From: Shinella zoogloeoides
GTDB lineage: Bacteria; Pseudomonadota; Alphaproteobacteria; Rhizobiales; Rhizobiaceae
Direction of reading: 5' to 3'
Length of the DNA stretch: 64,000 nucleotides
NCBI RefSeq assembly: GCF_030733845.1
Contig: NZ_CP132311.1
Location: 2,607,501 to 2,671,500, forward strand
Positions 8,499-61,424 of the stretch are shown here, piece after piece. Both the position numbers and the translations under genes were made by a program. The notes under the pieces are model-generated. The model did not search any database. It was given only the letters and a program-made list of their open reading frames with translations, and was not told the origin of the DNA. The stretch's first letter is position 1. Each line of letters starts with the position of its first letter.

Positions 8499-8551
8499 GG
8501 AACTCGAAGCGGCCGGGCGGCGTGCGTGCGCCGCCCGTTCCGTGAGAACGA

Positions 8552-10127: not shown

Positions 10128-10151
10128 CTTAAATACTCCCCTCGACCGTCC

Positions 10152-10873: not shown

Positions 10874-10877
<4 letters not shown>
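10152..10877 (-). CDS. livF: Branched-chain amino-acid ABC transporter ATPase LivF
   Basis: A 241-residue ATPase. Walker A is GANGAGKST, the signature is LSGGEQQML, Walker B is LLLLDEPSLGLAP and the H-loop region is VFLVEQNA, all typical of LivF. The start overlaps the end of livG by four bases (ATGA), indicating translational coupling. It forms the heteromeric ATPase pair with LivG that energises the LivH/LivM channel. Confidence 0.96.
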
Positions 10878-13188
<2,311 letters not shown>

Positions 13189-13192
13189 GAAA

Positions 13193-42541: not shown

Positions 42542-43498
42542 TTAACTAGAACCGAACCTAAGCGCACCCGGGGTCATCGCGATCGCTTGCGCTGATTGCT
42601 GGTCCTGTTGCCTGGCGACTCCGAGCAGCCACTTATGGAAGTTTTGCCCGAACGGCTTTTCGAGGGCGGTCCTGTCCCAAGCCAGATAGTAGCTTTCCGA
42701 AAGCTTCATGCGGATATCGAAAGGCACGACCAGGCTGCCGGCGGCGATTTCGTCCTGTACCATGGAAACCTGCGCGAGAACAAATCCCCTACCGTTGGCC
42801 GCCGCGTCGATGGCGCTGCTTGAGAGGGTGAAGGAAAGGCTGGAAATAGTCTGCCGGCCGTCGGCATTGATGAGGCTCGCCCAGTCCTTCCATTGTGGCG
42901 AGGCCTTGTAGTCTGCTTCCCATTCCACATTGAGCAGGGGAAAGGTGAGGATATCCTGCGGACAGCTCGGAGCCCCGTTTGCAATGAGCGCGGGCGAACA
43001 GACCGGCACGACCCAGTCGGTGAACAAAGCCGCCACATGTTCGTGGGCGTAGGAGCGCCGGCCGTAGGTGATACGGAAATCCACCTCCTCCGCGCCGAGA
43101 CGGGGCTCCTGCTCCTGGCCGAGGATGCGCACGTTCGAGCCCGGGCAGAGCGACTGCCAATCGAAGATCTTGCGGCTGACCCAACGGCTGGCGACCGAGG
43201 ACAGGGCGCTGAGCACTATGCTGCTTTCGTTGCGCGCACGCGTCAGTACATTGGCGGCATGGGAAAGCTGCTCAAACCCCTTCGCAACCTCGCGATAATA
43301 GAGCCGCCCCCAGGAAGATAATTCCACCCGCCGGCCGCGCCGCTCCAGAAGCGTTAATCCAAGACATTGCTCCAGATTGCGCACCAACTGGCTGACGGCT
43401 CCCGGCGACACGCCCAGGTCTTCCGCGGCAGCACTCACCGAGCCGCATCGTCCAATGGCTTCAAAGGCCTGCAAGCCGCGCAAGGACGGGTTCGACAT
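42542..43498 (-). CDS. LysR-family regulator (GcvA-like) divergent from the Rieske operon
   Basis: A 318-residue LysR regulator. The N-terminal helix-turn-helix (LRGLQAFEAIGRCGSVSAAAEDLGVSPGAVSQLVRNLEQ, given here as family order) is of the GcvA/AmpR type. The effector domain contains VDFRITYGRRSYAHEHVAALF, as in GcvA-like proteins. ATG 43498 has GGGAGG upstream; a longer start at 43633 would cover the divergent promoter. The 124-base gap to the Rieske gene carries a T-N11-A palindrome at 43530-43544. It is the likely activator of the 43.6-51.4 kb operon, with a substrate or intermediate as inducer. Confidence 0.92.
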   Translation of the reverse strand: MSNPSLRGLQAFEAIGRCGSVSAAAEDLGVSPGAVSQLVRNLEQCLGLTLLERRGRRVELSSWGRLYYREVAKGFEQLSHAANVLTRARNESSIVLSALSSVASRWVSRKIFDWQSLCPGSNVRILGQEQEPRLGAEEVDFRITYGRRSYAHEHVAALFTDWVVPVCSPALIANGAPSCPQDILTFPLLNVEWEADYKASPQWKDWASLINADGRQTISSLSFTLSSSAIDAAANGRGFVLAQVSMVQDEIAAGSLVVPFDIRMKLSESYYLAWDRTALEKPFGQNFHKWLLGVARQQDQQSAQAIAMTPGALRFGSS

Positions 43499-43529
43499 CG
43501 TTACGCATTCCTCCCGCGACGCATCCCAA

Positions 43530-43544
43530 TTTAGATTTTCTAAA
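43530..43544. promoter_or_regulatory. LysR-type T-N11-A box
   Basis: TTTAGATTTTCTAAA is a perfect palindrome (TTTAG-N5-CTAAA) containing the LysR consensus T-N11-A at 43531-43543. It lies 32 bases before the LysR start and 79 bases before the Rieske start, where a shared activator site is expected. Confidence 0.6.
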
Positions 43545-43622
43545 ATAGAACGCAGCAGCTGGCAACTTGTTGGCGCCGGGAAAACAACGAACATTCGCTT
43601 ATCAAAACGCAAGGAGAGCGAG

Positions 43623-44669
43623 ATGTTTCTCAAGAATGCCTGGTACGTCGCGGCCTGGGATCACGAGGTAAGCCGCGAGCTTAAGCCCGTCACCATCCTC
43701 GGCGAAAAGATCGTTCTTTACCGCCTGCAGAATGGTCAGGCCGCCGCGCTGGAAGATGCCTGTCCCCATCGCAAGCTGCCGCTCTCCATGGGCCGTATCA
43801 AGGGCGACGATGTTGAGTGCGGCTATCACGGCCTGACCTTCGACTGTTCGGGCACCTGCACGCGCGTTCCGGGTGCGGAGCGCATTCCCCATGTCGCCAA
43901 GGTGCGCTCCTACCCGGTCTACGAGCGCTACGGCCTGCTCTGGATATGGATGGGTGAAGCCGACAAGGCGGACCCGAAAGACATTTTCGAGGTCGAGTAT
44001 TTCGACGATCCGGCCTGGGGCATTAATCGCGGCGAGTCGATGACGCTCAACTGCAACTACCTCTACATGACCGACAACCTGCTCGATCCGTCTCACGTTG
44101 CCTGGGTCCACCAGTCGTCCTTCGCAAGCTCGGCCTGCGAGGAAACGCCGCTGGAGACGACCGTCAAGGACGACGGCGTCACCGTTTGGCGCTGGATGAT
44201 CGACTCCGAACCGGCGCCCTTTTATGCCCCCTTCCTGCAGTTCGAGGGCAATACGGACCGCAAGCAGCACTATGAGGTCCGCTATCCGAGCAACGCCATC
44301 ATCAAGGCGATCTTCGCGCCGGCCCACACGGGCGGCGAAGGCCGCGCGCTGCCGGAAAACACCTTCCTCATGGACAGCTACAACTTCATGACGCCGGTCG
44401 ATGAGAACCGCACCAAATATTACTGGTTCCAGATGCGCAATTTCGCGCCTGATGACGCTGAAGTCTCTGCGCGTTTTGCTACATCCGTACGTGGCGCCTT
44501 CGAGGAGGACCGCGTGGTCTTGGAGGCCGTGCATCACGGTATGGCCAACAAGCAGACGCCGAACCTCGACCTGAAGATCGACGTCGGCCCGATGCGCTTC
44601 CGCCGCAAGCTCGCCCAGATGATCGCCGCCGAAGCGCAAGCCGGGCCTGCCACCGCGGCGGCTGAGTAA
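43623..44669 (+). CDS. Rieske non-heme iron oxygenase (VanA/demethylase type)
   Basis: A 348-residue oxygenase component. The [2Fe-2S] Rieske motif is C47-P-H49 and C66-G-Y-H69 with 16 residues between. The mononuclear iron site is in DNLLDPSHVAWVH, giving D155, H158 and H163. Length and the MFLKNAWYVAAWDHEV start place it among single-component-type O- or N-demethylases such as vanillate, dicamba and toluenesulfonate monooxygenases, which release methyl groups as formaldehyde. AAGGAGAGCGAG precedes the ATG. The reductase follows 11 bases on, and formaldehyde-oxidation genes follow in the same direction. Substrate unknown; see findings. Confidence 0.92.
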   Translation: MFLKNAWYVAAWDHEVSRELKPVTILGEKIVLYRLQNGQAAALEDACPHRKLPLSMGRIKGDDVECGYHGLTFDCSGTCTRVPGAERIPHVAKVRSYPVYERYGLLWIWMGEADKADPKDIFEVEYFDDPAWGINRGESMTLNCNYLYMTDNLLDPSHVAWVHQSSFASSACEETPLETTVKDDGVTVWRWMIDSEPAPFYAPFLQFEGNTDRKQHYEVRYPSNAIIKAIFAPAHTGGEGRALPENTFLMDSYNFMTPVDENRTKYYWFQMRNFAPDDAEVSARFATSVRGAFEEDRVVLEAVHHGMANKQTPNLDLKIDVGPMRFRRKLAQMIAAEAQAGPATAAAE

Positions 44670-44680
44670 GGATCGCCCGA

Positions 44681-45778
44681 ATGCTGGACGCCGCGGCCTC
44701 GCGCTTCCGCCCCTTCGAAGTGATCTCGAAAGTGCGCGAAAGCACCACCATCACATCTTTCCGACTTGCCCCTCTCGACCGGCAGCACTGGCGGCCGTTC
44801 GAGGCCGGACAGTTCCTCACGATACGGGTTCCCGATAGGAAGGGTGGCCATGTCCTGCGCAACTATACGGTCTCCTCGTCGCCGCGCGAGGAAGGCACGT
44901 ACCGGATTACTGTGAAGCGTGAGGGCGCACCGTCGCAGGGCGTTCCGGCAGGTGTGAGTTCGTGCTGGCTGCATGACGAGATCGAGCCCGGCGCCGTCGT
45001 CGAAATCGACCTGCCGCGCGGCGCCTTCAAGCTGGACACCGCGAGTAGTCGGCCAGTCGTGCTGCTCTCCGGCGGCGTCGGGCTGACGCCCACGGTCTCG
45101 ATGCTTGATGTGCTGGCACGGGAAAGCAACCGACCCGTCTGGTTCATCCACGCCTGCGACAGCGGGGCCGTCCATGCCCTGCGCGGCGAGGTCGAACGGC
45201 TTGCCGCCCTCAGGTCCGGCATCACCGTGCATTTCTGCTACCGCTTCGCAGACAGCGCCAACCTCGACACGATGAGATGCCATTCCGAAGGCTTCCTGAC
45301 GCGCGCCACGCTTCAAGAGCTTCTGCCGCTCGACGATTACGACATCTACATGTGCGGCCCGCCCCCCTTCATGCAGGCGCTTTATGGCATCCTCACCGGC
45401 CTCGGCGTCCGCAAGGAGCGTATTGCCTATGAGTTCTTCGGCCCGGCAAGCCTTCTCACGGAGGCCGCGCAGACAACACCGCAACCCGTGAAACCGGCGG
45501 CCGACCAATCCCCCGCAGGCGACGGACCTCATATCGTTCTTCAGAAATCCGGGCGCAGGCTCGCCTGGGACGGCACGAGTGAATCCATCCTCGCCTTCCT
45601 GGAGGCACAGGGCATCGAGCCGGAATTCTCCTGCCGGGCGGGGGTCTGCGGAACCTGCGAACAGGGCCTCGTCTCCGGAGAGGTCGACTATTTCGACGAG
45701 CCGCTCGACGTGATCCCGAAGGATCGGGTGCTGCTGTGCTGTACCCGACCGAAATCCTCGCTCGTGCTCGATCTGTAG
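44681..45778 (+). CDS. Flavin/[2Fe-2S] reductase partner of the Rieske oxygenase
   Basis: A 365-residue electron-transfer protein. An FNR-type FAD domain (R60-N-Y62-T with VLRNYTVSSSP) and an NAD domain (LLSGGVGLTPTVSMLDVL, then MCGPPPFMQ) resemble flavohemoglobin and GbcB/CntB/Stc4-type reductases more than FMN-type VanB. A linker of about 40 residues leads to a C-terminal plant-type ferredoxin domain with C318, C323, C326 and C353. It would move electrons from NAD(P)H to the Rieske centre. The GbcB/Stc-like form hints at a betaine-like N-methyl substrate, but this is inference. Confidence 0.92.
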   Translation: MLDAAASRFRPFEVISKVRESTTITSFRLAPLDRQHWRPFEAGQFLTIRVPDRKGGHVLRNYTVSSSPREEGTYRITVKREGAPSQGVPAGVSSCWLHDEIEPGAVVEIDLPRGAFKLDTASSRPVVLLSGGVGLTPTVSMLDVLARESNRPVWFIHACDSGAVHALRGEVERLAALRSGITVHFCYRFADSANLDTMRCHSEGFLTRATLQELLPLDDYDIYMCGPPPFMQALYGILTGLGVRKERIAYEFFGPASLLTEAAQTTPQPVKPAADQSPAGDGPHIVLQKSGRRLAWDGTSESILAFLEAQGIEPEFSCRAGVCGTCEQGLVSGEVDYFDEPLDVIPKDRVLLCCTRPKSSLVLDL

Positions 45779-45838
45779 CGACTGTGAACAAGAGGCTGCG
45801 GCCTGAATCCGGGGTGCCTCGCACCCCAAGGAGAACCC

Positions 45839-46948
45839 GTGACGAAAATGCTCCGAGACGAAATTCCGCTCAATCCGCATGTCGCCGGGCTGCCGCCCTA
45901 TAATGCCGGCATGAATATCGCCGCCGCGCAGAAGCATAGCGGCCGGCAAGACATCGCCGCTCTTGCCAGCAACGAGAACCCGGACGGCTGCTCGCCGAAG
46001 GTCGCCGCCGCTCTCGCCGGCCTCAATCCGGCGCGGTACTGCGATCCGGCCTGCACGGCGCTGCGCACGGCCCTCAGCCACAAGCTCGATGTTCCCGCGG
46101 ACCGCATCGTCGTCGGCAACGGCTCGGAGGAGATGATCGCTGCGGTATGCCGCGCCATTCTTCGTCCTGACGCCTTCGTCGCGACGCTCTGTCCCGGCTT
46201 CGGCCTGCACGAGATCGAGGCGCTTGCCAACGGCGCGCGGATCGAGAAGGTTGCCATGCGGGCGGACCTGGATTTCAACATTCCCGCGATCGTTGCCATG
46301 CTTGCGCGCAAACCGGCGATCTTCTTCCTCTCGTCGCCGTCCAATCCTGTCGGGCCGGCGCTCGACCGTGACGGCCTCGCGCGCATTCTCTCGGCGGTTC
46401 CACCACAAACGCTGCTCGTGCTGGACGAGGCCTATTTCGAGTTCACCGACGACGATACACCCGACGGACTTGCCTCCCTTACAAGGACCGATCTCGCCTG
46501 GGTGGTGCTGCGGACCTTTTCCAAGGCCTACGGGCTTGCCGGCCTGCGCGTCGGCTATGCCGTGACGTCGGACCTGCGCCTGGCGCGCGCCATGACCGCC
46601 GCCAAGACACCGTTCAACGTCAATGCCGCCGCGCAGACCGCCGCCCTTGCCGCGCTGGATGACGAAGCGTGGATGCGCGCATCGGTCACCGCACTGAAGC
46701 GGGAACGGCAGCGGGTCTCCCAGCGCGTCGCGACCCTCGGCTTTCGCGTCGCCGGATCGCAGACGAACTTCCTCTTCATCGATGTCGGATGGGACAGCCG
46801 GGCGGCCTTGGATCACTTCCTGTCGAAGGGGATCATCATTAAGCCGTGGAAGGAAGCCGGCTACGAAACCTTCATCCGCGTGACGATCGGCAGCCGCTCA
46901 GAAAACGACCGTTTCATCGAGGCGCTTGCCGCTCTCGCCAAGGAGTGA
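45839..46948 (+). CDS. HisC-like PLP aminotransferase
   Basis: A 369-residue fold-type I aminotransferase of the histidinol-phosphate family. Motifs: LASNENPDGCSP, VVGNGSEEMI, FLSSPSNPVGPALD, LDEAYFEFTDDDTP, and the PLP lysine in RTFSKAYGLAGLRVGYAV. Such enzymes also act on aromatic and other amino acids outside histidine synthesis; its place in a catabolic operon argues against a biosynthetic role. The GTG at 45839 is chosen because AAGGAG lies five bases upstream, while the ATG at 45848 is badly spaced. A short hairpin (GGGGTGC/GCACCCC) precedes the ribosome site. Confidence 0.88.
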   Translation: MTKMLRDEIPLNPHVAGLPPYNAGMNIAAAQKHSGRQDIAALASNENPDGCSPKVAAALAGLNPARYCDPACTALRTALSHKLDVPADRIVVGNGSEEMIAAVCRAILRPDAFVATLCPGFGLHEIEALANGARIEKVAMRADLDFNIPAIVAMLARKPAIFFLSSPSNPVGPALDRDGLARILSAVPPQTLLVLDEAYFEFTDDDTPDGLASLTRTDLAWVVLRTFSKAYGLAGLRVGYAVTSDLRLARAMTAAKTPFNVNAAAQTAALAALDDEAWMRASVTALKRERQRVSQRVATLGFRVAGSQTNFLFIDVGWDSRAALDHFLSKGIIIKPWKEAGYETFIRVTIGSRSENDRFIEALAALAKE

Positions 46949-47016
46949 CGCCCGCAGCGCCGCTCCAATTGAACAAGACAGAACAGCGGCCGATCCACGG
47001 CCCAAGGGAACGAACC

Positions 47017-49029
47017 ATGAGCGCAAACGCAAGTCTGCCCAAAGCGAACCGGGAGCCAAATCGCATGTCCCCATCGACGCCATCCGGCCTGTTTTCCGGC
47101 GACTATTCCGCTCTGCGCGCCCGGTTCCTCGCCGCCGCGCGCACGGCCGGGGCGAGCCTCGTCGAATATCTGCACCCGTTGCACGGCCCCGATGGCGAGC
47201 GGCTTGCAACCGATGTCGCCTATCTCGGACGCAACGATGCCCGCAAGCTCATGGTGCTGATTTCCGGCACCCATGGGGTCGAAGGCCCGTTCGGCTCGGC
47301 CTGTCAGACCGCCTGGCTCTCCCAGAACACACCCTGGCAGCTTCCCGACGATACCGCCGTCCTCGCAATCCACCTGATCAACCCCTGGGGCACCGCATGG
47401 TCGCGCCGGGTGAATGAAGACAATGTCGACCTCAACCGCAACTTCATCGACTGGCAGAAGGCGCCGCCGAAAAACGAGCGCTATGGCACGCTGCACGGCG
47501 CGCTCGTCTGTCCAGCGCTGGAAGGGCCGGCGCATGACACGGCCATGGAGGCCTATGAAGAGGTCAAGCGGCGTTCCGGCGGCTATGCCGGCCTTGCTCC
47601 GATCATCGAAGCCGGTCAGTACGATTTTCCGGATGGATTGTTCTATGGCGGCGACGGCCCCGTCTGGTCCAACCGCACCCTGATCGACATCCTCACGACC
47701 TTGGCGCAGCAGGCGAGCGAGGTGGTCGTTTTCGACCTGCACACAGGCGCCGGTCCCTATGGCTATCCGGCGCTGCTCTCCGTCGCCGAAAGCGAGCATG
47801 CCGGCCTGGATTGGGGACGCGGCATCTTCGGCCCTGCCCTTTCCATCGTCGTCACCGGCGCAAACGCGACCACGGATACCGGCATTGCCGCGACCGCGAC
47901 CGGTTATGTCTCAGCGGCCGTGCGAACCGCGCTGCCGAAGGCGCGTGTCCTGCCGCTGGTCGTCGAATGCGGCACGCTTGATGGCGCCACCGTTTCAGAC
48001 GCGGTGCAGGCCGACAACTGGCTTCATCTGTTCGGCAAGGTCGATACGCCGCTCGGCGGCAGGATAAAGAAAACCCTGCGCGCCGCCTTCATTCCCGAAG
48101 ACGCAGATTGGCAGCGTGCATGCCTTGCCGCGTCGCTGCGCCATTTCGACCGCGCCTTCGCCGACCTCAAGGCGGTCGGCGGTGCCGGTCCGGAAAAAAC
48201 GGTTCCGGCGGCAGCGGCCGTGACCATCGTCGCCCATCCGGACGTCAACGGCCCGAGGCTTGCCGAACGGCCGGCGATCGAGGTGCACGGCATCCACAAG
48301 CGTTTCGGCATCCTGCCCGTGCTGAACGGCGTCAGCGTCTCCGCGCAGCCGGGTGAGGTCGTGTCGATGATCGGCTCCTCCGGTTCGGGGAAAAGCACCT
48401 TTCTGCGATGCATCAACCTCCTAGAACAACCGAACGACGGACGCATCGTCATCGACGGCGAGGAAATCCGCATGAAGAAGACGGCGGACGGCAGTGCCGT
48501 CCCGGCCGACATGCGGCAGGTCGAGCGCATCCGCTCGCGGGTCGGCATGGTGTTCCAGAACTTCAATCTCTGGCCGCACATGACCGTGCTCGAAAACATC
48601 GTCGAGGCGCCGCTGCATGTGCTGAAGGAAGAGCGGCAGGCGACCGTCGATCATGCCCATGCGTTGCTGAAGAAGGTCGGCCTCTCCGACAAGCATGCTC
48701 AATACCCCGGCCAGCTTTCGGGCGGCCAGCAGCAGCGCGCCGCCATCGCCCGCACGCTTGCGATGCGCCCGAAACTCATCCTGCTCGACGAACCGACCTC
48801 CGCGCTCGATCCCGAGCTGGTCGGCGAGGTACTGCGGGTGATCCGGCAACTGGCCGAAGAAGGAAACACGATGATCCTCGTGACGCACGAAATGCAGTTC
48901 GCGCGCGAGGTCTCGCACAAGATCCTCTTCCTCCATCAGGGAAAGGTGGAGGAAGAGGGTGCCCCAGCGGAGGTGTTCACCAATCCGCGCTCAGAACGCA
49001 TGCGCCAGTTCCTGGCCCGGACGTTCTGA
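47017..49029 (+). CDS. Fusion of DUF2817 (M14-type) hydrolase and amino-acid ABC transporter ATPase
   Basis: A 670-residue two-domain protein. Residues about 25-395 are a DUF2817 zinc-carboxypeptidase/deacylase-like domain with [12 protein letters not shown] (ligands H86, E89), [13 protein letters not shown] (H242) and VVECGT (E317, the catalytic-Glu position). Residues about 424-670 are a GlnQ/HisP-type ATPase with Walker [10 protein letters not shown] (453-461), signature LSGGQQQR, Walker [15 protein letters not shown] and LVTHEMQF. The two are normally separate genes. A linker of about 30 residues ([20 protein letters not shown]) joins them and contains an A6 tract at 48194-48199, where a one-base slip would give GTGA-overlapping genes. 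AAGGGAAC precedes ATG 47017. The binding protein and permeases follow, so the ATPase half is in context. Confidence 0.85.
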
Positions 49030-49082
49030 CAACCGCCGGCCTCAACCACCCGACAACAAAGCTCAACATGGGGAACCAAAAC

Positions 49083-49880
49083 ATGAAGCTGAAAACTCTG
49101 CTGCTCGCCGCCTGTTTCGCCGCTGGCATCACCGCCGCCCAGGCCGCCGAAGGTGAATTGTCCATCGGAACAGAGGGCGCCTATCCGCCATGGAGCATGG
49201 CCGATGCCGCCGGCAATGTCACCGGCTTCGATGCCGATGTCGGCAACCTGCTCTGCGCCAAGCTGGAGATGAAGTGCCAGTTCGTCGTGCAGGCCTTCGA
49301 CGGCCTGATTCCGGCCCTGAAGGCCAAGCGTTTCGACATCATCATTTCGGGCATGTCGATCACCGAGGATCGCAAGAAGGAGATCAACTTTTCGATCGGT
49401 TACGCCGAACTCGCCAACATGTTCGTCGTACCGAAGACCTCGACACTCGTCGGCATCACCGATCTCGATGGACTTATCACGGCGCTGGACGGGAAGAAGG
49501 TGGGCGTGCAGGCCGGCACGACCCATGCGCACTACCTCGAGAAGAAGGTGCCAAACGCCGACCTAAAGACCTATGACACGCTCGACCAGATGCAGATCGA
49601 TATTGCCAGCGGCCGTATCGATGCAGCATTCGCAGATCGATCGGCGCTCGACGACTTCCTGAACAAACCCGAAGGCAAGGATTTTCAGTTGGTCGACGTC
49701 AACGTTCCGAGTTCGTCTGACCCGACATTGGGTGAAGGCATTGGTGTTGGAATCGCCCAGGAAAACACCGAGCTGAAGGCCCGCATCGACACGGCGCTTT
49801 GCGAACTGGTCTCCGACGGTTCGATCGGCAAGGCGAGCCAGACCTGGTTCAAGACGGACATCTCCCGCCCCTGCAAGTAA
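49083..49880 (+). CDS. Polar amino-acid ABC transporter substrate-binding protein
   Basis: A 265-residue periplasmic binding protein. Signal MKLKTLLLAACFAAGITAAQA, then ELSIGTEGAYPPWSMADAAGNVTGFDADVGNLL, the SBP_bac_3 opening, and FDGLIPALKAKRFDIIISGMSITEDRKK. This is the lysine/arginine/ornithine/histidine and opine-type cluster, whose ligands are basic or modified amino acids. The ATG at 49083 has GGGGAACC upstream. It follows the fused ATPase gene by 53 bases. The ligand is probably the operon's substrate, which remains unknown. Confidence 0.92.
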   Translation: MKLKTLLLAACFAAGITAAQAAEGELSIGTEGAYPPWSMADAAGNVTGFDADVGNLLCAKLEMKCQFVVQAFDGLIPALKAKRFDIIISGMSITEDRKKEINFSIGYAELANMFVVPKTSTLVGITDLDGLITALDGKKVGVQAGTTHAHYLEKKVPNADLKTYDTLDQMQIDIASGRIDAAFADRSALDDFLNKPEGKDFQLVDVNVPSSSDPTLGEGIGVGIAQENTELKARIDTALCELVSDGSIGKASQTWFKTDISRPCK

Positions 49881-49957
49881 CGCCAACATGGTGTCTCCCG
49901 GATATCGTCCGGGGACATTGCCTCCGACAGGACAACAGACAGGTTTGGGCAGGTCCG

Positions 49958-50665
49958 ATGGAATTTGGATTATGGCAGGTATGGGAGGGCGGCTGGATCG
50001 CCGCAATCCTGCGCGGCGCGGCGATCACCATCGCGGTCGGTGTCGCGAGCATGGCATTCGGCATTGTCATCGGCATTGCCTGCGGCCTGATCAAATGGGC
50101 GCGGCTCTTCCCGCTGACGCTGGCGGTGGATTTCTACACGTCGATCGTGCGCGGCGTGCCCGAACTCCTGATCATCTATCTTCTCTTCTTCTCCTCCGTC
50201 GAATTCGTGGGACAGATCGCCGCCGCCTTCGGCTATGAGGGGCTGGCCGGCAACGGCTACGCCTTCATCATCGCCGTCATCGCGATCGCGGCCATATCGG
50301 GCGCCTACTCCACCGAGGTCGTGCGCGGCGCGCTTGCCGCCATTCCCGGCGGCCATATCGAGGCCGCCCGCGCGCTCGGCATTCCCGGCAGGCGCATCTT
50401 TCGCCGGATCATAGCACCGCAGATGCTGAGGATTGCCGTGCCCGGCATGAACAATGTCTGGCAGACGACCATCAAGGATACCGCCCTCGTCTCCGTCGTC
50501 GGCCTGCAGGAACTGATGCGTGCTGCCTTCGTCGGCGCCGGCTCCACGCGCCATCCCTTCATTTTCTACTTCATCGCGGCTGTCGTCTATCTCGTCATCA
50601 CGCTGGTCAGCCAGGGTGGTTTCGACCGGATCGAGCGCCTTCTGCGCCCCCGCACGAGGACATAG
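49958..50665 (+). CDS. Polar amino-acid ABC transporter permease (HisQ type)
   Basis: A 235-residue inner-membrane permease, with AGRRIFRRIIAPQMLR-like loop (EAARALGIPGRRIFRRIIAPQ) as ATPase contact and five helices. The VRGVPELLIIYLLFF segment is typical of the HisM/ArtM/OccQ type. The ATG at 49958 follows GGGCAGGTCCG. It is the first of two permeases and ends four bases before the next start. Earlier in-frame codons overlap the binding-protein gene. Confidence 0.93.
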   Translation: MEFGLWQVWEGGWIAAILRGAAITIAVGVASMAFGIVIGIACGLIKWARLFPLTLAVDFYTSIVRGVPELLIIYLLFFSSVEFVGQIAAAFGYEGLAGNGYAFIIAVIAIAAISGAYSTEVVRGALAAIPGGHIEAARALGIPGRRIFRRIIAPQMLRIAVPGMNNVWQTTIKDTALVSVVGLQELMRAAFVGAGSTRHPFIFYFIAAVVYLVITLVSQGGFDRIERLLRPRTRT

Positions 50666-50668
50666 GCC

Positions 50669-51355
50669 ATGGATCTCGATCTCATCCAGCTTGCCGTTCC
50701 GACCCTTGCCAAGGGATTGTGGCTGACCGCCGTCCTGACGCTTGCCGCCGTCGCCATCGGCTTCAACCTCGGCCTTGCGCTCGCCGTCATGCGGCTTTCG
50801 AAAAACCGATTCGTGAGCGGTTTCGCCAAGGGCTACAGCACCGTCTTCCGGGGAACGCCGTTGCTCGTCCAGCTCTTCCTCTTCTACTACGGCCTCGGCC
50901 AGATTGCCTTCGTGCGCGACAACCCCGTCCTCTGGTGGGTCATCGGCGACGGCGTTCATTGCGCCGTGATGGCATTGGCGCTCAACACCGCCGCCTATAC
51001 GTCGGAAATCCTGCGCGGCGGCCTCCTGTCGATCCCGGGCGGCCTCGTCGAGGCGGCGCAGGCCTGCGGCATGTCGCGGCTCCTGTGTTTTCGCCGGATC
51101 ACGTTCCCACTGGCCATAAGGCAGGCCTTGCCGGCCTATGGCAACGAGCTCGTGCTCGTCGTCAAAGGAACGAGCCTCGCCTCGACCATCACCGTGCTGG
51201 AAATCACCGGCCATGCGAAACGCCTGATGAGCCAGACCTATGCGATCCTTGAGGTCTTCGCCATCGCCGGCATGCTCTACCTCCTGATCAATCTGGTGTT
51301 GATCACCCTTGTTCGGCTGCTGGAAGCCAGCCTGACGCGCTACGTGCCGAGGTAG
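50669..51355 (+). CDS. Polar amino-acid ABC transporter permease (HisM type)
   Basis: A 228-residue second permease: [20 protein letters not shown] start, [19 protein letters not shown], and the EAA loop [22 protein letters not shown]. Together with the previous gene it builds the channel of an importer for opine- or basic-amino-acid-like molecules. It starts three bases after the first permease's stop. The dehydrogenase gene begins 41 bases after its stop, so the operon probably continues into formaldehyde oxidation. Confidence 0.93.
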
Positions 51356-51396
51356 CCAAATCTCTGAAACGACGGATACTCTGGAAGGAAAACACC

Positions 51397-52524
<1,128 letters not shown>

Positions 52525-52641
52525 GCGCGGATTCAGGACCGCCGGCACTGCAGCAATCCATTCAACGCACCGTCGCGCCAGCGCCGGCGGTGCCTGTGAT
52601 CGGCCGCGCATACCGCGCCGGCCATGAAGGAGGAGAAGCCC

Positions 52642-53214
52642 ATGCCAAGCATCGCGATACATCCATCCCTCGACAGCGGGTTCAAGGCGACGAATGCCGC
52701 CTTTTCCGGCGGCACGCTCGTCTGCAATTGCGCGAGCAATACCGTGAAGGTTCGCATCAAGGGCGATATCGCCCATAACCATGCCTGCGGCTGCACCAAA
52801 TGCTGGAAGCCTGACGGCGCGGTTTTCTCGGTCGTCGCCGTCGCGCCGACCGAGAATGTCGAAGTGCTTGAAAACGGCGACAAGCTCGCCGTCGTGGACC
52901 CGGCTGCCCTCATCCAGCGGCATGCCTGCCAGGCGTGCGGCGTGCATCTCTACGGCCCGGTCGAGCGCGACCATCCGTTCAAGGGCCTGTCCTTCGTGCA
53001 TCCGGAGCGTTTCGAAGAGAGCGGCTGGGCGAAGCCTGGATTTGCGGCCTTCGTCTCCTCGATCATCGAGAGCGGCTACGACCCGGCGCAGATGGACAGC
53101 GTTCGGACCCGGTTGCGCGAACTCGGTCTCGCGCCCTACGACTGCCTCAACCCCGCCTTGATGGACTACATCGCCACCTGGACGGCGAAGAAAAACGGCA
53201 CGCTTCACGCCTAA
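52642..53214 (+). CDS. gfa: S-(hydroxymethyl)glutathione synthase
   Basis: A 190-residue Gfa-type protein: [20 protein letters not shown] start, the zinc cysteines in [20 protein letters not shown] and [14 protein letters not shown], and the [17 protein letters not shown] segment. It speeds the combination of glutathione and formaldehyde to the substrate of the dehydrogenase upstream. The ATG at 52642 has AAGGAGGAGAAG upstream; an ATG at 52624 in frame is less well placed. It is 117 bases after the dehydrogenase gene and probably co-transcribed. Confidence 0.93.
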
Positions 53215-53277
53215 TGCCCTGAACCTCCCAAGATCAGCCTCTCCCTCTTTCCCGATGCCATCGACAGGATCTGTCCA

Positions 53278-54687
53278 ATGCACCGTCTGAAGCCCGAATT
53301 CACCGCAGAAGTCCGCAACATCGTCGGCGAGGGAAACTTCAGGGAGGGAGAGGCGGTCGCCATGATCGATTACGGCGTGGCGCCGGAAAATCTCGACGCC
53401 GGCGCCGTCGTCCTCCCCGGCACGACCGAGGAGGTTGCCGCCATCGTCCAATGCTGCCGCGCCCACGGCGTCCCGCTTGTCACGCATGGCGGTCGAACCG
53501 GGCTCGTGGGCGGCGGTCTGTCGAAAACGGGAGAACTGGTGCTCTCCACCGCCCGGCTCAATCGCATCCTGCATCTCTGCCCCGTCGAGCGTGTTGCGGT
53601 GGTGGAAGCCGGCGTGACGCTGCAGGCGCTGCAGATGGCGGCCGCGGAGCATCGCCTTGAACCGGGGATCGATCTACCGTCCCGCGGCTCGGCGACGATC
53701 GGCGGCATGACTTCAACGAATGCCGGCGGGATTTCTGCCTTCCGGTTCGGCGTCATGAGGCATCGCATTCTGGGGCTGGAGGCCGTGCTTGCGGATGGCT
53801 CGATCTATTCCGACCTCACCCGCGTTGTGAAAAACTCCGCTGGCTATGATCTGAAACATCTGTTTGTCGGCGCGGAAGGCACGCTCGGCGTGATAACGCG
53901 GATTGCCGTCAAGCTGGAGCCCCAGCCTTTGGCCACTGCAACGGTCCTGTTCGGCCTGGCCTCGGTGGATGCAGCACTCGAGACGGTTCGCCGGGGACTG
54001 GATGCAGAATACGGCCATCTGCGCGCGGCCGAAGCGATCTGGGACAGGTATTTCCGACTGACCTCCCGCCACCATCGCTGGTCGGCTGCGGACTACGCTA
54101 CGGATCACCCCGTCAACCTTCTGATGACGCTTGGCGGCGTCGACGAGACCGCCTTGCAATCGGAGCTCGCACGCGTCTATGAAGTCGTGACTGCCACTCA
54201 ACCCGACACCTCGGCCGTGATCGCATTCTCGGGCGCGCAGGAGGCAGATCTCTGGCGGCTTCGCGAGGACACAGACCTCATCTATCGGCAGCATCCGGGT
54301 GCACCATCCTACGACGTCTCCATTCCCCTCTCGCAGGTGGCGTCCTATCTCGAACGGTGCCTTGCCGATCTGAAGGCGATTGATGCCGCATTCGACCCCT
54401 ACGTCTTTGGCCATCTTGCCGACGGAAACCTCCACATCGTGCTCAACAGCACCGGCAGCGACATTTCGGCGGAAAAGGCGAGTGCCGTCGATGAGGCAAT
54501 CTACCGGAGCATCAGAGAGCTGGGTGGGTCGTTTTCTGCCGAACACGGGATCGGCGCGAAGCGAGTGGTGTCGCTATCGGCTCTGTCCCACCCGGCCAAG
54601 CTCGCCCTGATGCACCGGATCAAGGGCTCGCTCGACGCGCCGGCGCTTCTTAATCCAGGCAAGGTGCTCAAGGCAGTCATGGCCTGA
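53278..54687 (+). CDS. FAD-linked oxidase, D-2-hydroxyacid dehydrogenase type (GlcD/DLD like)
   Basis: A 469-residue flavoenzyme of the FAD_binding_4 plus FAD-oxidase C group. The N-terminal FAD domain holds PGTTEEVAAIVQCCRAHGVP, LVTHGGRTGLVGGGLS and GSATIGGMTSTNAGG, and the C-terminal domain ends SFSAEHGIGAKRV. Relatives oxidise D-lactate, D-2-hydroxyglutarate or glycolate. Here it may oxidise a 2-hydroxyacid formed after transamination in the pathway, which is inference. It begins 63 bases after gfa and is convergent with the GlxA-type regulator, so it ends this rightward operon. Confidence 0.9.
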   Translation: MHRLKPEFTAEVRNIVGEGNFREGEAVAMIDYGVAPENLDAGAVVLPGTTEEVAAIVQCCRAHGVPLVTHGGRTGLVGGGLSKTGELVLSTARLNRILHLCPVERVAVVEAGVTLQALQMAAAEHRLEPGIDLPSRGSATIGGMTSTNAGGISAFRFGVMRHRILGLEAVLADGSIYSDLTRVVKNSAGYDLKHLFVGAEGTLGVITRIAVKLEPQPLATATVLFGLASVDAALETVRRGLDAEYGHLRAAEAIWDRYFRLTSRHHRWSAADYATDHPVNLLMTLGGVDETALQSELARVYEVVTATQPDTSAVIAFSGAQEADLWRLREDTDLIYRQHPGAPSYDVSIPLSQVASYLERCLADLKAIDAAFDPYVFGHLADGNLHIVLNSTGSDISAEKASAVDEAIYRSIRELGGSFSAEHGIGAKRVVSLSALSHPAKLALMHRIKGSLDAPALLNPGKVLKAVMA

Positions 54688-54722: not shown

Positions 54723-55799
54723 CTAACGATAGGTGCCGTTCGGAGAAGGGAACCTCTCAAACAATATGTTTTTGACGCGGCTCCGCATCTTATTGGGCGT
54801 CATGCCGAAATTGGCCCGAAAACGCCTGCAAAAATGCGAGCTGTTTGCAAAGCCGACGTCGAGCGCAATCTCAATCACGGTCTTGGATGTTCGCTCGACC
54901 AGTTGCGCGGCCTTTTTCATACAGATCTTCTCGTAGGCAGCAGCAGGTGAAACGCCAGTCTTGCTCTGAAATATCCGTTCCAGCTGCCGCCTGGAAAGAC
55001 CGACGCGGTCCGCGATCGTCTCGATTTCAAGCCTGTCGTCCATGTTTTCCTCCATACAGAGGAGCGCCACACGAATGCGGTCGTCGCAGTGAACGGGCAG
55101 AGCGATCGGCGTCCGGCTCTGCAAATCCGAACCTTCTCTGCGCCGATCGAGTTGAAGGATTTCCATGGCATTGCGTTCTGCGCTCTCGCCGACATGCCGC
55201 CGGACCAGCAGTGCGGCAAGATCGGCCACAGCGCTTCCTCCGGCGCACGTCGTTACCTTTCCGTCCTCGACGAAGAGCCGTTGTGAGGTAAGTCGAATCG
55301 CCGGGAAGCGTGCCTTGAATTCGGAATGATGCAGCCAGCTGATACAGGCCGTCTTGCCGTCCAGCAATCCGGAATCGGCAAGAACGAAGCTGCCTGTGCA
55401 GGCACCGATCAGCCTGACACCCTTCTGGAGGGCGCGCTGAAGAAAACTGACGGATTCGGATGGCAATTGTTCCTCAACGCCCAAAAGGCCGCCAATCACG
55501 ACGATATAGTCGAAACGCTCCGGATCACCGAGACTTGTGGTCGGAACAACCTGAACACCGCAGCTTGATCGGATCATATGTGTGTTCGGGCTCAGGACAT
55601 CCCAGTCGCACATGCGACGGCCCGATTTGTCCTCTACGTCGCTGGCGAGCCGCAGGGTATCAACGAATAGTGCAAAGGCGCTCATGGTGAATTGCCGGGC
55701 GAGGAGAAAGCCGACCCTCAGTCGCTTGCCGGGTCCACCATCGGAGCCGTGGTTCTTGCCGCGTCCGGCGACGACATATCCAATTCCACGCTCCAGCAT
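54723..55799 (-). CDS. GlxA-family transcriptional regulator (DJ-1/PfpI + AraC domains)
   Basis: A 358-residue regulator. The N-terminal DJ-1/PfpI-like domain contains VGFLLARQFTMSAFALFVDT and GVRLIGACTGSFVLADSGLL with the reactive-type Cys. The C-terminal AraC helix-turn-helix pair reads IADRVGLSRRQLERIFQSKT and ALDVGFANSSHFCRRFRANF. This architecture is that of GbdR, SouR, CdhR and ArgR-like regulators of glycine betaine, sarcosine, carnitine and arginine catabolism in pseudomonads. It is divergent from creatinase, so it probably activates creatine catabolism. ATG 55799 has GGGGAGAG upstream. Confidence 0.92.
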   Translation of the reverse strand: MLERGIGYVVAGRGKNHGSDGGPGKRLRVGFLLARQFTMSAFALFVDTLRLASDVEDKSGRRMCDWDVLSPNTHMIRSSCGVQVVPTTSLGDPERFDYIVVIGGLLGVEEQLPSESVSFLQRALQKGVRLIGACTGSFVLADSGLLDGKTACISWLHHSEFKARFPAIRLTSQRLFVEDGKVTTCAGGSAVADLAALLVRRHVGESAERNAMEILQLDRRREGSDLQSRTPIALPVHCDDRIRVALLCMEENMDDRLEIETIADRVGLSRRQLERIFQSKTGVSPAAAYEKICMKKAAQLVERTSKTVIEIALDVGFANSSHFCRRFRANFGMTPNKMRSRVKNILFERFPSPNGTYR

Positions 55800-55916
55800 C
55801 GGCTCTCCCCGCTTCCAAAACGACGGCCGATCGCGGCCCTCTCTTGCTGGAAACCTATAGAAGGAGATACCGCGACGGAAATTTCCTTCGCAAATGACGG
55901 CATTAGCAATCTGCAC

Positions 55917-55951
55917 GAAGTTCGAATTCCTTATGCCCGCATTGGAACTTC
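55917..55951. promoter_or_regulatory. Spaced inverted repeat in the regulator/creatinase divergent promoter
   Basis: GAAGTTC (55917-55923) and GAACTTC (55945-55951) form a perfect 7-bp inverted repeat with a 21-base spacer, in the 232-base gap between the GlxA-type gene and creatinase. It is a candidate binding site; AraC-type proteins more often use direct repeats, so confidence is low. Confidence 0.35.
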
Positions 55952-56031
55952 TAATTTTCCAGCAGCCACGAAGCTTCCTACCCTCAGTTTCGTCGAACAG
56001 GGCGATTGGCCGCCAAGAAGGAGTTTTTCAC

Positions 56032-57267
56032 ATGAACATGTTTGCGCGAGGGATGCCGAACCAGCTCCTACGATTGCAGGAAATGCACAATGGCGAGAAG
56101 GTACAGTCGACTTTCTCGGCAGGCGAAATGGAGCGGCGACAAAATGCGATGCGTGGCATTTTGGAGGAGTTGAAACTCGATGCGGCGGTACTGACCTCCT
56201 ATCACAATATCTGCTATTTCTCCGATTTCCTCTATTGCTCCTTTGGCCGGCGATATGCCTTCGTCATCACGCCGGAAAAGGCGACTTCGGTCTCCGCCGG
56301 TATCGATGCAGGCCAGCCCTGGCGCCGCACCTTTGGCGACAACATCACCTATACCGACTGGCAGCGTGACAACTTCTTTCACGCTCTGCAGCAGCTTTTG
56401 CCGAATGTCTCGCGCATTGGCATCGAATTCGATCAGGTCAATCTCGATCTGCGTCGACTGCTGGAAGAAGCCTTCCCCAGTGTCGAGTTCGTCGATATCG
56501 GCTCGCCGACCATGTGGTTGCGCACGATCAAGTCGCCCGAGGAGATCGTGCTCATCAAGGCAGGGGCCGCGACGGCCGATATCGGAGGCGCCGCTGTGGC
56601 GAAGGCCGTGCACGAAGGCGTGCCGGAATACGAAGTTGCGCTTGCCGGCACGCAGGCCATGGTCCGCCATATCGCGGACCGTTTTCCCCATGCCGAACTG
56701 ATGGACACATGGGTTTGGTTTCAGTCGGGCATCAACACCGACGGGGCACACAATCCGGTGACGTCGCGCCGCGTCCAGAAGGGAGACATTCTTTCTTTGA
56801 ACTGCTTCCCGATGATCGCCGGCTATTATACGGCGCTCGAACGCACACTGTTCCTCGACCATGCGAGCGACGAGCACCTGCGCATCTGGGAGATCAACTG
56901 CGCCGTTCATCGTCGCGGCCTTGAATTGCTGAAGCCGGGTGCGCGTTGCGGCGATGTGGCGACCGAACTCAACGAGATCTACCGCGAGCACGGCCTGCTC
57001 GGCTACCGTTCCTTCGGCTACGGTCATTCCTTCGGCGTGCTTTCGCATTATTACGGCCGCGAGGCCGGGGTAGAGTTGCGCGAGGATATTAACACCGTGC
57101 TGCAACCGGGTATGGTCGTCTCAATGGAGCCGATGCTGACCATTCCGGATGCCCTGCCGGGGGCCGGCGGCTATCGCGAACACGACATTCTCGTGATGAC
57201 GGAAACCGGCAGCGAAAACATCACGGGCTTCCCCTTCGGTCCGGAGCATAATATCATCCCCGCCTGA
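56032..57267 (+). CDS. Creatinase (creatine amidinohydrolase)
   Basis: A 411-residue M24-fold enzyme that hydrolyses creatine to sarcosine and urea (EC 3.5.3.3). It aligns with Pseudomonas putida creatinase almost throughout (STFSAGEMERRQ, TSYHNICYFSDFLYCSFGR, GQPWRRTFGDNITYTDWQRD, DTWVWFQSGINTDGAHNPV, NCFPMIAGYYTALERTLFLD). The catalytic set H232, E262, E358 and H376 of that enzyme corresponds to H240, E270, E366 and H384 here. The M24 metal ligands of peptidases are replaced, as expected for creatinase. ATG 56032 has AAGGAG upstream; the open frame reaches back to 55894 over the promoter. Sarcosine would be used by soxBDAG at 17-22 kb. Confidence 0.95.
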   Translation: MNMFARGMPNQLLRLQEMHNGEKVQSTFSAGEMERRQNAMRGILEELKLDAAVLTSYHNICYFSDFLYCSFGRRYAFVITPEKATSVSAGIDAGQPWRRTFGDNITYTDWQRDNFFHALQQLLPNVSRIGIEFDQVNLDLRRLLEEAFPSVEFVDIGSPTMWLRTIKSPEEIVLIKAGAATADIGGAAVAKAVHEGVPEYEVALAGTQAMVRHIADRFPHAELMDTWVWFQSGINTDGAHNPVTSRRVQKGDILSLNCFPMIAGYYTALERTLFLDHASDEHLRIWEINCAVHRRGLELLKPGARCGDVATELNEIYREHGLLGYRSFGYGHSFGVLSHYYGREAGVELREDINTVLQPGMVVSMEPMLTIPDALPGAGGYREHDILVMTETGSENITGFPFGPEHNIIPA

Positions 57268-57287
57268 CCCGTATGCGGGCAACTTGG

Positions 57288-57311
57288 AACGGGCCGCCCG
57301 ATCGGCCCGTT
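57288..57311 (+). terminator. Terminator after creatinase
   Basis: A 9-bp perfect stem (AACGGGCCG / CGGCCCGTT, 6-base loop) followed by TCCTTTT, 21 bases after the creatinase stop and 26 bases before the start of the LysR gene, which should reduce read-through into it. Confidence 0.7.
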
Positions 57312-57336
57312 TCCTTTTGGAAGCGGTACCACGCTC

Positions 57337-58212
57337 GTGAGAAACATCCCGACCGACCTTCTTCGTACTTTCCTTGCGGTTATCGATTTGCGCAGCCATA
57401 CGCGCGCCGCCGAGCAGCTCGGCCGTACCCAGCCGGCCATCAGTCTGCAGATGAAGAAGTTGCAGGAACTGCTCAACGTTTCCCTTTTTGCCAAGGACGC
57501 CAGCGCGCAGCCGACCGAGGCGGGCGAACTCGTGGCGAGCTACGCTCGTCAGATGTTAACGCTGAACGACGAGATGGTGCTGCGCCTCTCCCGACGCGAC
57601 CAGCATGGCAAAATCCGCCTCGGCATTCCCAATGACTATGCCGACCATTTCCTGCCGAAGCTGATGCCACGCCTTGCCCGCAGCGGCCACGATTTCCGCT
57701 TCGAGGTCGTCTGCGACCTTTCCCATATCCTGCTGCAAGGCCTGCGTAGCGGTCTGTACGATCTCGTTGTGGCGATGACGCCGGACGGGCCGGCAGAAGG
57801 CGCGTTCATGACCTGGAAGGAGCCGCTCGCCTGGGTGGGCGACGACGAGACCTCCATTGTTGCGGACAGTGGAGGAAATCTGCGCATCGTCTGCTATCCG
57901 GAGGGTTGCCTCTACCGTCGGGCGATGCTGACGGCCCTGCAGCGAGACGGTCGTGGTTATGAACTCGTATATACGAGCCCTAGTCTTTCGGGCCTCGAGG
58001 CCGCAGTCGGTTCCGGTTTCGGCAACACCGTGCTCGCCCGTCGCATCGTGCCGGCCAAGTTATCGACGCTTGACGACGCCCTTGGCCTTCCCAGGCTCAC
58101 GGACGTCGTCGTCGGCATCTATCTGAGTTCCGACCGCAAACGCTCCCCGGTGGCAGAGAGCTTTGCTGCGCATTTTGCCGACGCTTTTCTCGCCGACACA
58201 CGGGACGGGTGA
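57337..58212 (+). CDS. LysR-family regulator next to the creatine transporter
   Basis: A 291-residue LysR protein. The helix-turn-helix (LRTFLAVIDLRSHTRAAEQLGRTQPAISLQMKKLQ, family order) is intact and the effector domain begins GKIRLGIPNDYADHFLPKLM. It starts with GTG at 57337, 70 bases after creatinase, and runs towards the transporter operon, ending exactly where the permease stop begins (TGATCA at 58210-58215). It probably controls the transporter or creatinase genes, but no target site is obvious in 62469-62752. Confidence 0.9.
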   Translation: MRNIPTDLLRTFLAVIDLRSHTRAAEQLGRTQPAISLQMKKLQELLNVSLFAKDASAQPTEAGELVASYARQMLTLNDEMVLRLSRRDQHGKIRLGIPNDYADHFLPKLMPRLARSGHDFRFEVVCDLSHILLQGLRSGLYDLVVAMTPDGPAEGAFMTWKEPLAWVGDDETSIVADSGGNLRIVCYPEGCLYRRAMLTALQRDGRGYELVYTSPSLSGLEAAVGSGFGNTVLARRIVPAKLSTLDDALGLPRLTDVVVGIYLSSDRKRSPVAESFAAHFADAFLADTRDG

Positions 58213-59031
58213 TCAGGTCCGTCGCATTCGACGGATGAGGTTCAGCACTAGAAACAGGGCGATGGAGACGGTGGTCAGCAGGCTTGCCGCCGCCATGATC
58301 GTCGGGTTGATCTGGTCCCGAATACCGGAGAACATCTGTACCGGCAGCGTGCGCTGCTCGGCCCCCGTGAGGAATAGGGCGACAATAACCTCGTCGAAGG
58401 AAACAGCGAAGGCAAGCAATGCGCCGGAGACGATGCCGGGGAGGATGAGAGGCAGCGTGACGGCGAAGAACACGCTGATCGGCCCTGCGCCAAGACTCGC
58501 GCCTGCCCGTGTGAGATTGGAATCGTAGGTGGAAAGCGCCGAAAGCACCGTAACGACCACGAAGGGAATGGAGAGCGCGGCATGGGCGAGCACCAGTCCC
58601 GTGCGCGTGTTGGTGAGCCCGAGCGTGCCGAAGAACATGTAGGCGCCAACGGCGACGATGACGACGGGCATGATCATGGGCGAGATCATCAATGCCATGA
58701 CGGCTTTACGCGCCGGAAACCCGGGTCGGCTGATGCCGAGTGCGGCCAGCGTGCCGAGAAGCGTGGCGAGCGCCGTACTGAAGACAGCCGCGACCACGCT
58801 GTTCAAAAGGCTCTGTGTCCAGCGCGGGTTCTCAAAGAAATCCGAGTACCAGCGCCACGAATACTCCTGGATCGGAAAGGTAAAGAACGGATCCTTCGAA
58901 ACCGACAACGGAAACACGACAAAGAGCGGTCCGATAAGGAAAACGAGAACGGCAAAAGCGAAAGTGACGACGGCGAAACGGCAGAGCCGTTCGCTTCGGG
59001 TTGCGTAAGCAGGAAGCCACATGGTTCTCAT
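58213..59031 (-). CDS. ABC transporter permease, PotC type
   Basis: A 272-residue inner-membrane permease of the spermidine/putrescine class. Features: YSWRWYSDFFENPRWTQSLLNS, the EAA-loop segment LTRAGASLGAGPISVFFAVT and six helices. It is the last gene of the leftward operon binding protein-ATPase-permease-permease. Its ATG overlaps the upstream permease stop by four bases (ATGA). By position beside creatinase it likely imports creatine or a related guanidino compound, which is inference. Confidence 0.93.
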   Translation of the reverse strand: MRTMWLPAYATRSERLCRFAVVTFAFAVLVFLIGPLFVVFPLSVSKDPFFTFPIQEYSWRWYSDFFENPRWTQSLLNSVVAAVFSTALATLLGTLAALGISRPGFPARKAVMALMISPMIMPVVIVAVGAYMFFGTLGLTNTRTGLVLAHAALSIPFVVVTVLSALSTYDSNLTRAGASLGAGPISVFFAVTLPLILPGIVSGALLAFAVSFDEVIVALFLTGAEQRTLPVQMFSGIRDQINPTIMAAASLLTTVSIALFLVLNLIRRMRRT

Positions 59032-60275: not shown

Positions 60276-60277
60276 GA

Positions 60278-61414: not shown

Positions 61415-61424
61415 CCGCCGCTCC

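Follow-up and report, generated by a model that had tools for sequence, protein, structure and literature searches.

A conserved Rieske oxygenase gene block of Shinella zoogloeoides linked to histidine utilisation: a candidate module for ring-N-methylated histidine

The window analyzed here, a stretch of 64,000 nucleotides from Shinella zoogloeoides (NZ_CP132311.1, or contig C2, positions 2607501-2671500; genome of 5.18 Mb), contains a block of ten genes on the forward strand (window positions 43623 to 54687) with one divergent LysR gene opposite, as delineated by open reading frame and family profile searches (Table 1). This block is probably a substrate-extension module of the histidine-utilisation (hut) system, predicted to act on histidine methylated at a ring nitrogen (N-tau or N-pi). 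Its link to histidine catabolism is well supported: this pathway is the most likely destination of the product, and a ring-N-methylhistidine the most likely substrate. An initial annotation of the window had assigned the gene families, namely Rieske oxygenase, reductase, HisC-like aminotransferase, DUF2817-ABC (ATP-binding cassette) fusion, importer, FrmA, Gfa and 2-hydroxyacid oxidase, and these are borne out by the Pfam and NCBIfam models; the divergent LysR gene and the palindromic box that it placed at the left end are both present, while its count of nine same-direction genes falls one short of the ten in its own list.

The evidence that carries this reading comes from gene neighborhoods. 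We compared 80 loci, the best 80 of at least 562 relatives (at least 593 stretches), with Rieske proteins 65-96% identical to that of the window, against 40 control loci centered on VanA-type Rieske paralogues. The former represent several orders and are 4.4-21 kb long, with 20 of them below 15 kb; the latter were taken from 61 rows at 35-45% identity, mostly by room on the contig, and are all from the window's order, with three below 20 kb. Four of the 80 loci also belong to a separately sampled set of genomes (numbered G): L102 is G398, L118 is G469, L119 is G338 and L134 is G400. Hut genes were counted at fixed identity cut-offs (HutH 45, HutU 60, HutI 45, HutF 40, HutG 40), under which a 26% HutG-like match in L161 was left uncounted. 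At least one hut enzyme gene lies near the Rieske gene in 15 of the 80 loci (0.05-7.8 kb away; 13 with two or more) versus none of the 40 paralogue loci (Fisher p 0.002), and an order-matched comparison gives six of 20 orthologue stretches versus none of 40 (p 0.0008), though the loci are phylogenetically related and hence these p-values are optimistic and only indicative.

The arrangements themselves range from elaborate to minimal. Gemmobacter lutimaris (L122) and Pseudorhodobacter wandonensis (L124) share one arrangement: hutF (reverse), hutI, hutH, hutG, hutU, FrmA, Gfa, LysR (reverse), Rieske, reductase, HisC, FAD (flavin adenine dinucleotide) dehydrogenase, DUF2817-ABC, binding protein and two permeases, i.e. 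the window's complete gene set placed behind hut genes; HutH and HutU of the Gemmobacter locus exceed their curated cut-offs. In Mycoplana dimorpha (L106), with a Rieske protein 94% identical to that of the window, the divergent LysR gene separates the Rieske gene from hutF at a distance of 1.3 kb, and hutI, H, G and U follow further out. In five further genomes (G416, G266, G027, G165 and G375) the Rieske gene is accompanied by hutF, I, H, G, U and C, with the marker proteins above curated cut-offs. At the other extreme, hutU is just 50 bp from the Rieske gene in L153, the Rieske gene follows hutIHGU-HutD in L154 and lies 2.5 kb behind hutU in L151; none of these three fetched loci has a match to the reductase, HisC or FAD dehydrogenase. 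Because they combine the Rieske gene with hut genes in this reduced form, they suggest that demethylation alone may suffice for entry into the hut route. HisC is found in ten of the 15 hut-linked loci, and HisC, the FAD dehydrogenase and DUF2817 are each missing from some of the Rieske-hut loci; since the smallest arrangement observed is the Rieske gene plus hut, transamination need not precede demethylation. When 104 Rieske proteins are placed on a tree, 13 changes of the hut label are needed, spread over many branches from L078 (62% identical) to the Mycoplana locus; this number is inflated by short contigs on which hut genes are possibly out of reach.

The association extends to whole genomes. 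With orthologues defined at 51% identity or above and hutH called by an E value of 1e-100 or better instead of its curated cut-off, hutH is present in 17 of 17 order-level genomes with the orthologue, versus 24 of 39 paralogue-only genomes, i.e. those without a match of at least 51% (p 0.002), and 142 of the remaining 280 (p 2e-5). The genome of the window has hutIHGU, hutF and hutC at 1.228-1.236 Mb of contig C2, with HutH (724.2 bits) and HutU (975.9 bits) above curated cut-offs; these genes are not beside the block, which lies 1.4 Mb away at 2.65 Mb, and the linkage is seen in relatives only. A further HutH-like gene on the same contig (C2:3136108-3137571, L219; 458 bits against a cut-off of 539) lies close to an amino-acid ABC transporter.

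Several points weigh against this reading, beyond the relatedness of the loci and the inflated tree count mentioned above. No hut enzyme gene is found within the flanks of 65 of the 80 loci; among the 20 loci that head the identity-ranked list, L096-L115 (86-96% identical and mostly the closest relatives), only the Mycoplana locus has one; and in five of the 15 hut-linked loci the nearest hut enzyme gene is more than 6 kb away, or there is a single hut gene at 3.9 or 7.8 kb. In the family-level sample the excess of hutH is not significant (14 of 14 versus 152 of 185, p 0.13), and both the 17 order-level and the family-level orthologue genomes include deep-branch members. This deeper branch (L074, L077, L080-L082; 52-61% identical) has other neighbors and may act on another substrate. 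The best solved relatives of the Rieske protein are O-demethylases, such that an O-methyl substrate is compatible with the sequence alone, and the sequence does not fix tau, pi or N-alpha methylation. Rieske demethylation as such is predicted from sequence and gene context, and the direction in which HisC and the FAD dehydrogenase would work is a guess.

Some of these same points would favor a different methylated amino acid as the substrate, e.g. a methylated arginine or lysine or an O-methyl aromatic amino acid, with the hut neighbors reflecting shared regulation or chance: the binding-protein family also handles arginine, lysine and opines, most of the loci are without hut enzyme genes in their flanks, and the close solved Rieske relatives act on O-methyl groups. 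We consider this unlikely, given that hut genes are absent from all 40 paralogue loci, that hutH is present in every one of the 17 orthologue genomes and that the Rieske gene sits within hut gene strings in several families.

With respect to the oxygenase itself, the protein combines a C-x-H/C-x2-H cluster, a bridging Asp, a 2-His-1-Asp iron site and a VanA_C domain, as is characteristic of VanA-type Rieske non-haem iron oxygenases. In an alignment of 134 sequences C47, H49, H69, D155, H158, H163 and D296 are invariant, and C66 is retained in 133; we take these, by homology, to be the metal-binding positions. The AlphaFold2 (AF2) model (predicted local distance difference test score, pLDDT, 93) has its best structural match in DdmC (template-modelling score, TM, 0.88), and the solved relatives nearest to it are demethylases, namely DdmC and the guaiacol O-demethylase (7qwt), with the N-demethylase NdmA more distant and the hydroxylases SxtT and GxtA ranking between the O-demethylases and NdmA. 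Many residues fixed in the clade, including K51, E218 and Q270, differ in the paralogues of 37-45% identity. Where sources name the homologues, they are called vanillate O-demethylase, ring-hydroxylating dioxygenase or Rieske protein. The reductase accompanies the oxygenase in 58 of the 80 relatives. In Microvirga arabica (L143) a broken Rieske remnant (4457-4770), two short matches joined by a stretch with stop codons, lies beside the LysR gene, with an intact copy (8412-9425) 3.6 kb downstream.

The block shares domain make-up, fold, metal-site residues and a separate reductase with DdmC, 7qwt and VanAB, and it would be conceivable that it represents a known vanillate, dicamba or stachydrine/glycine-betaine demethylase operon, an idea for which the VanA_C domain, the separate reductase and the vanillate O-demethylase label of some homologues speak. 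However, identity to DdmC and the guaiacol enzyme is only about 31%, and the block differs from the VanA-type demethylases in its amino-acid importer, its hut context in relatives and its clade-specific residues. Neither the Rieske protein nor the reductase reaches an NCBIfam cut-off, and the annotated neighbors are amino-acid genes rather than those of a VanAB system. Likewise, GbcA, Stc2 and CntA, which use Rieske chemistry to demethylate methylated amino-acid-like compounds, belong to a different Rieske subgroup: the reductase is distantly GbcB-like (122.8 bits against a cut-off of 500) and the oxygenase scores 20 bits against the 24.9 needed for Ring_hydroxyl_A. The vanillate, dicamba, stachydrine and glycine-betaine operons were rejected on the ground that no curated model is exceeded, making this explanation extremely improbable; the initial annotation had named a known vanillate or stachydrine pathway as the finding that would overturn its proposal, and by sequence the block is not one of these demethylases. 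A functional analogy is offered by NdmA and NdmB, in which Rieske enzymes remove an N-methyl group from an N-heteroaromatic ring and yield formaldehyde; these match the Rieske protein structurally, but at about 20-22% identity, act on xanthines and occur in a gene context without an amino-acid importer or hut genes.

The position of SxtT and GxtA, which we take to be hydroxylases, among the structural relatives bears on another alternative: the Rieske enzyme might oxidize an imidazole compound that bears no methyl group, e.g. imidazole propionate or lactate, by hydroxylation of the ring or side-chain, with the formaldehyde genes as bystanders. FrmA and Gfa are present in just 13 and nine of the 80 loci, and the HisC and FAD dehydrogenase pair fits imidazole lactate and pyruvate. 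Yet the closest solved relatives are demethylases, FrmA and Gfa recur jointly in seven of the 80 loci (L099, L100, L110, L122, L124, L129 and L136) with neither in the 40 controls, and imidazole lactate and pyruvate reach histidine without an oxygenase; we accordingly give this alternative only a small chance.

A further candidate is histidine methylated at its alpha-amino group (hercynine or N-alpha-methylhistidine), which would be demethylated stepwise to histidine ahead of the hut route. The hut linkage suits any methylated histidine, and Rieske enzymes of the other group (GbcA, CntA and Stc2) demethylate quaternary amines. The oxygenase of the block, however, is of the VanA_C type with Ring_hydroxyl_A below its cut-off and no GbcA model matched; hercynine would require three demethylations, yet the simplest loci have one Rieske gene; and the ergothioneine-type genes of the genome sit at another locus. 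Because of this separate locus and the VanA-type sequence, hercynine is the less likely substrate, and we regard the alpha-amino-methylated alternative as improbable. Ergothioneine catabolism is a hut-like branch for a modified histidine, and its enzymes, accompanied by a HutH-like lyase, are encoded in the same genome at a distance of 0.47 Mb; the block includes none of its genes. This route was rejected for the block since its marker enzymes lie elsewhere, at 2.18 Mb of C2: thiourocanate hydratase (1048.5 bits, cut-off 930) and thiohydantoin desulfurase (602.9 bits, cut-off 440). Their locus (L218, C2:2175001-2195000, positions 6717-13782) also encodes an amidohydrolase-like ORF along with the HutH-like lyase.

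Returning to ring-N-methylated histidine, the remaining genes of the block can be considered in its light. The HisC-like protein passes the TIGR01141 cut-off, falls below that of PRK05166 (430.6 against 540 bits), shares only 30-33% identity with the two further matches of the genome and occurs in 50 of the 80 relatives. DUF2817 is found in 43 of the 80; wherever it adjoins the ABC ATPase the two form an in-frame fusion (35 of 35 adjacent pairs), and eight more loci have DUF2817 without an adjacent ATPase. A chance or locally artefactual fusion is rejected on this count. The DUF2817 domain has an M14 fold, with Foldseek matches including aspartoacylase-family proteins and the dipeptide hydrolase CphZ, and retains the zinc site (His/Glu...His), Asn-Arg pair and catalytic Glu of M14 metallocarboxypeptidase/aspartoacylase-like enzymes; a sequence search of the PDB gave no match at E 0.001, and no paper relevant by title was found in the open-licence PubMed Central literature. 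In L168 an M20 amidohydrolase lies beside a Rieske-HisC-FAD dehydrogenase set without DUF2817. The importer comprises an SBP_bac_3 protein, two BPD_transp_1 permeases and a HisP-like ATPase, as in PAAT (LAO/HisJ) systems, and its binding protein retains an Asp aligned to what we take to be Asp161 of LAO, with its presumed role there, at which the nopaline-binding protein has Ser. The FAD-linked dehydrogenase is found in 37 of the 80 relatives, and its nearest named PDB relatives are D-2-hydroxyglutarate and D-lactate dehydrogenases. FrmA and Gfa are accessory to the block: their low frequency among relatives led us to reject them as core genes. The genome has two further FrmA copies of 99-100% protein identity (three in all; L225 on C4 and L226 at C2 1.707 Mb), and the FrmA-Gfa region (window 51397-53214) is duplicated over 1809 bp on contig C4 at 96.6% DNA identity.

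The regulatory end of the block is similarly conserved. A divergent LysR gene of the block's family (above 38% identity, within 500 bp of the Rieske gene) is present in 58 of the 80 loci, and a LysR match in 60. The pattern TTTAG-N5-CTAAA occurs at a single place in the whole 5.18-Mb genome, namely 43530-43544 of the window, whereas a control pattern occurs five times per strand. It is found in 50 of 59 LysR-Rieske intergenic regions (those of the 58 loci and the window) versus four occurrences in the remaining 1.10 Mb of those loci, and in none of the 40 control loci (0.78 Mb). Because the box is conserved, a local LysR-operator pair is a well-supported prediction. In three loci of Caballeronia/Paraburkholderia, L164 (at 3933), L169 (3729) and L173 (3808), a second such box precedes a further binding-protein gene of this family by about 180-250 bp, as if one LysR served a second importer.

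As to phyletic spread, Rhizobiaceae, Phyllobacteriaceae and Paracoccaceae have the block inclusive of DUF2817, and incomplete versions of it occur in Methylobacteriaceae, Comamonadaceae and Burkholderiaceae, among others. The synteny that the initial annotation had suggested looking for in other Rhizobiaceae exists and reaches beyond that family. None of reductase, LysR, HisC, DUF2817, FAD dehydrogenase, FrmA and Gfa reaches the threshold in the 40 control loci (the reductase match in L209 is 39%, with a cut-off of 40). Co-conservation without the Rieske pair, which would have spoken against that proposal, was not seen for DUF2817: among 199 family genomes it is found (E 1e-60) in five, all of which have the Rieske orthologue. 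For genomes without the Rieske gene this check covers DUF2817 and not HisC or the transporter. The proposal of a methylated amino-acid-like substrate that is imported and oxidatively demethylated with disposal of formaldehyde gains from this conservation and context; it had missed the tie to hut and the optional nature of FrmA and Gfa.

We infer the substrate, the order of the steps, every enzyme activity and the regulation from sequence, and the following route is proposed. A ring-N-methylated histidine, or its N-acyl or beta-alanyl form, would be taken up by the basic-amino-acid ABC importer, and the carboxypeptidase/aspartoacylase-like metallohydrolase fused to the transporter ATPase would release the free amino acid. 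The VanA-type Rieske enzyme with its reductase would then convert the N-methyl group to formaldehyde, leaving histidine for degradation by HutH and HutU, while FrmA and Gfa, where present, would dispose of the formaldehyde via glutathione. The HisC-like transaminase and FAD 2-hydroxyacid dehydrogenase may bring imidazole lactate and pyruvate (methylated or not) to histidine, and LysR is predicted to activate the gene set through the TTTAG-N5-CTAAA box. The hut system (HutH, HutU, HutI, HutF, HutG and HutC) would be fed by the Rieske gene, which adjoins it or sits inside it in a number of relatives; to our knowledge, the classical hut system lacks both an oxygenase and a DUF2817 hydrolase, and methylated histidine is not known to be among its substrates.

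Two further sets of Rieske neighborhoods were observed. Four hut-linked loci (L076, 12036-12803; L078, 6783-7586; L156, 2985-3668; L168, 2488-3261) have a PhyH-family oxygenase (iron/2-oxoglutarate type) in the vicinity of the Rieske gene, and PhyH matches occur in eight of the 80 loci, two of them hut-linked; this enzyme is possibly a second demethylase, e.g. for the other ring isomer. Within the deeper Rieske branch, L077, L080, L081 and L082 (52-58% identical) have other amino-acid ABC transporters nearby, and L077 and L081 have what read by sequence as creatininase-like and aminopeptidase/dioxygenase-like neighbors; the Rieske proteins of this branch are perhaps related demethylases with another substrate.

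Table 1. Features of the block in the window (positions in the window; scores in bits)
Feature	Position	Strand	Basis
LysR regulator, GcvA-like, divergent	42542..43498	-	GcvA model 223.3, below cut-off 288
Palindromic LysR box TTTAGATTTTCTAAA	43530..43544	.	pattern conserved in LysR-Rieske intergenic regions
VanA/DdmC-type Rieske non-haem iron oxygenase; predicted to demethylate N-methylhistidine (or a methyl-imidazole derivative)	43623..44669	+	Pfam Rieske and VanA_C, metal-site residues, AF2 fold, hut linkage
Reductase (FAD and NAD domains, 2Fe-2S domain at the C-terminus); presumably passes electrons to the Rieske enzyme	44681..45778	+	GbcB model 122.8, cut-off 500
HisC-like pyridoxal-phosphate aminotransferase; predicted imidazole-pyruvate/histidine transaminase	45839..46948	+	TIGR01141 283.6, cut-off 276.55
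DUF2817 (M14 carboxypeptidase-like hydrolase) and amino-acid ABC-transporter ATPase in a single frame of 670 amino acids	47017..49029	+	
Periplasmic amino-acid binding protein, LAO/HisJ/NocT family	49083..49880	+	family searches, alignment
ABC permease, HisQ/ArtQ type	49958..50665	+	family searches
ABC permease, HisM/ArtM type	50669..51355	+	family searches
FrmA, S-(hydroxymethyl)glutathione dehydrogenase, accessory	51397..52524	+	TIGR02818 591.8, cut-off 543.95
Gfa, S-(hydroxymethyl)glutathione synthase, accessory	52624..53214	+	TIGR02820 309.5, cut-off 234.55
FAD-linked D-2-hydroxyacid dehydrogenase; predicted imidazole-lactate dehydrogenase	53278..54687	+	Pfam FAD_binding_4 and FAD-oxidase_C

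To the right of the block (54723-62468) are genes for a GbdR-like AraC regulator, an M24 creatinase/ectoine-hydrolase-like protein, a second LysR and a spermidine/putrescine-type ABC transporter; Pseudaminobacter (L067 and L118, one genome) has an M24 gene (69%), a LysR2-like gene and Pot-like genes adjoining the Rieske block, along with a creatininase-family gene. At the right edge (62753-64000) is an FMN-binding glutamate-synthase-like protein, presumably GlxD-type, which runs past the edge.

The catabolic module is real and conserved, and apparently undescribed. Among the titles and abstract openings listed from the open-licence PubMed Central literature, a scope that leaves most subscription journals outside, there was no bacterial gene for methylhistidine breakdown, no Rieske enzyme for it and no pathway of this kind, in keeping with the view of the initial annotation. 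More tentatively, and at somewhat less than an even chance, the block may represent a new pathway that handles methylhistidines both free and in conjugates (e.g. 3-methylhistidine derived from actin, anserine, balenine or N-acetyl-methylhistidine), in which a clade of Rieske N-demethylases would act on a methylated imidazole, an ATPase-fused hydrolase would unpack the conjugate and the whole would be coupled to hut in separate alpha- and betaproteobacterial lineages. Methylhistidines are common products of the turnover of animal proteins and dipeptides, and are used to monitor muscle breakdown and the consumption of meat. If the proposal is true, a Rieske clade currently named vanillate O-demethylase or ring-hydroxylating dioxygenase would gain a substrate and DUF2817 a likely role in unpacking amino-acid conjugates. 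With the block, soil bacteria probably take up and use methylated histidine, with the methyl group predicted to be taken off as formaldehyde and the remainder to pass into histidine breakdown.

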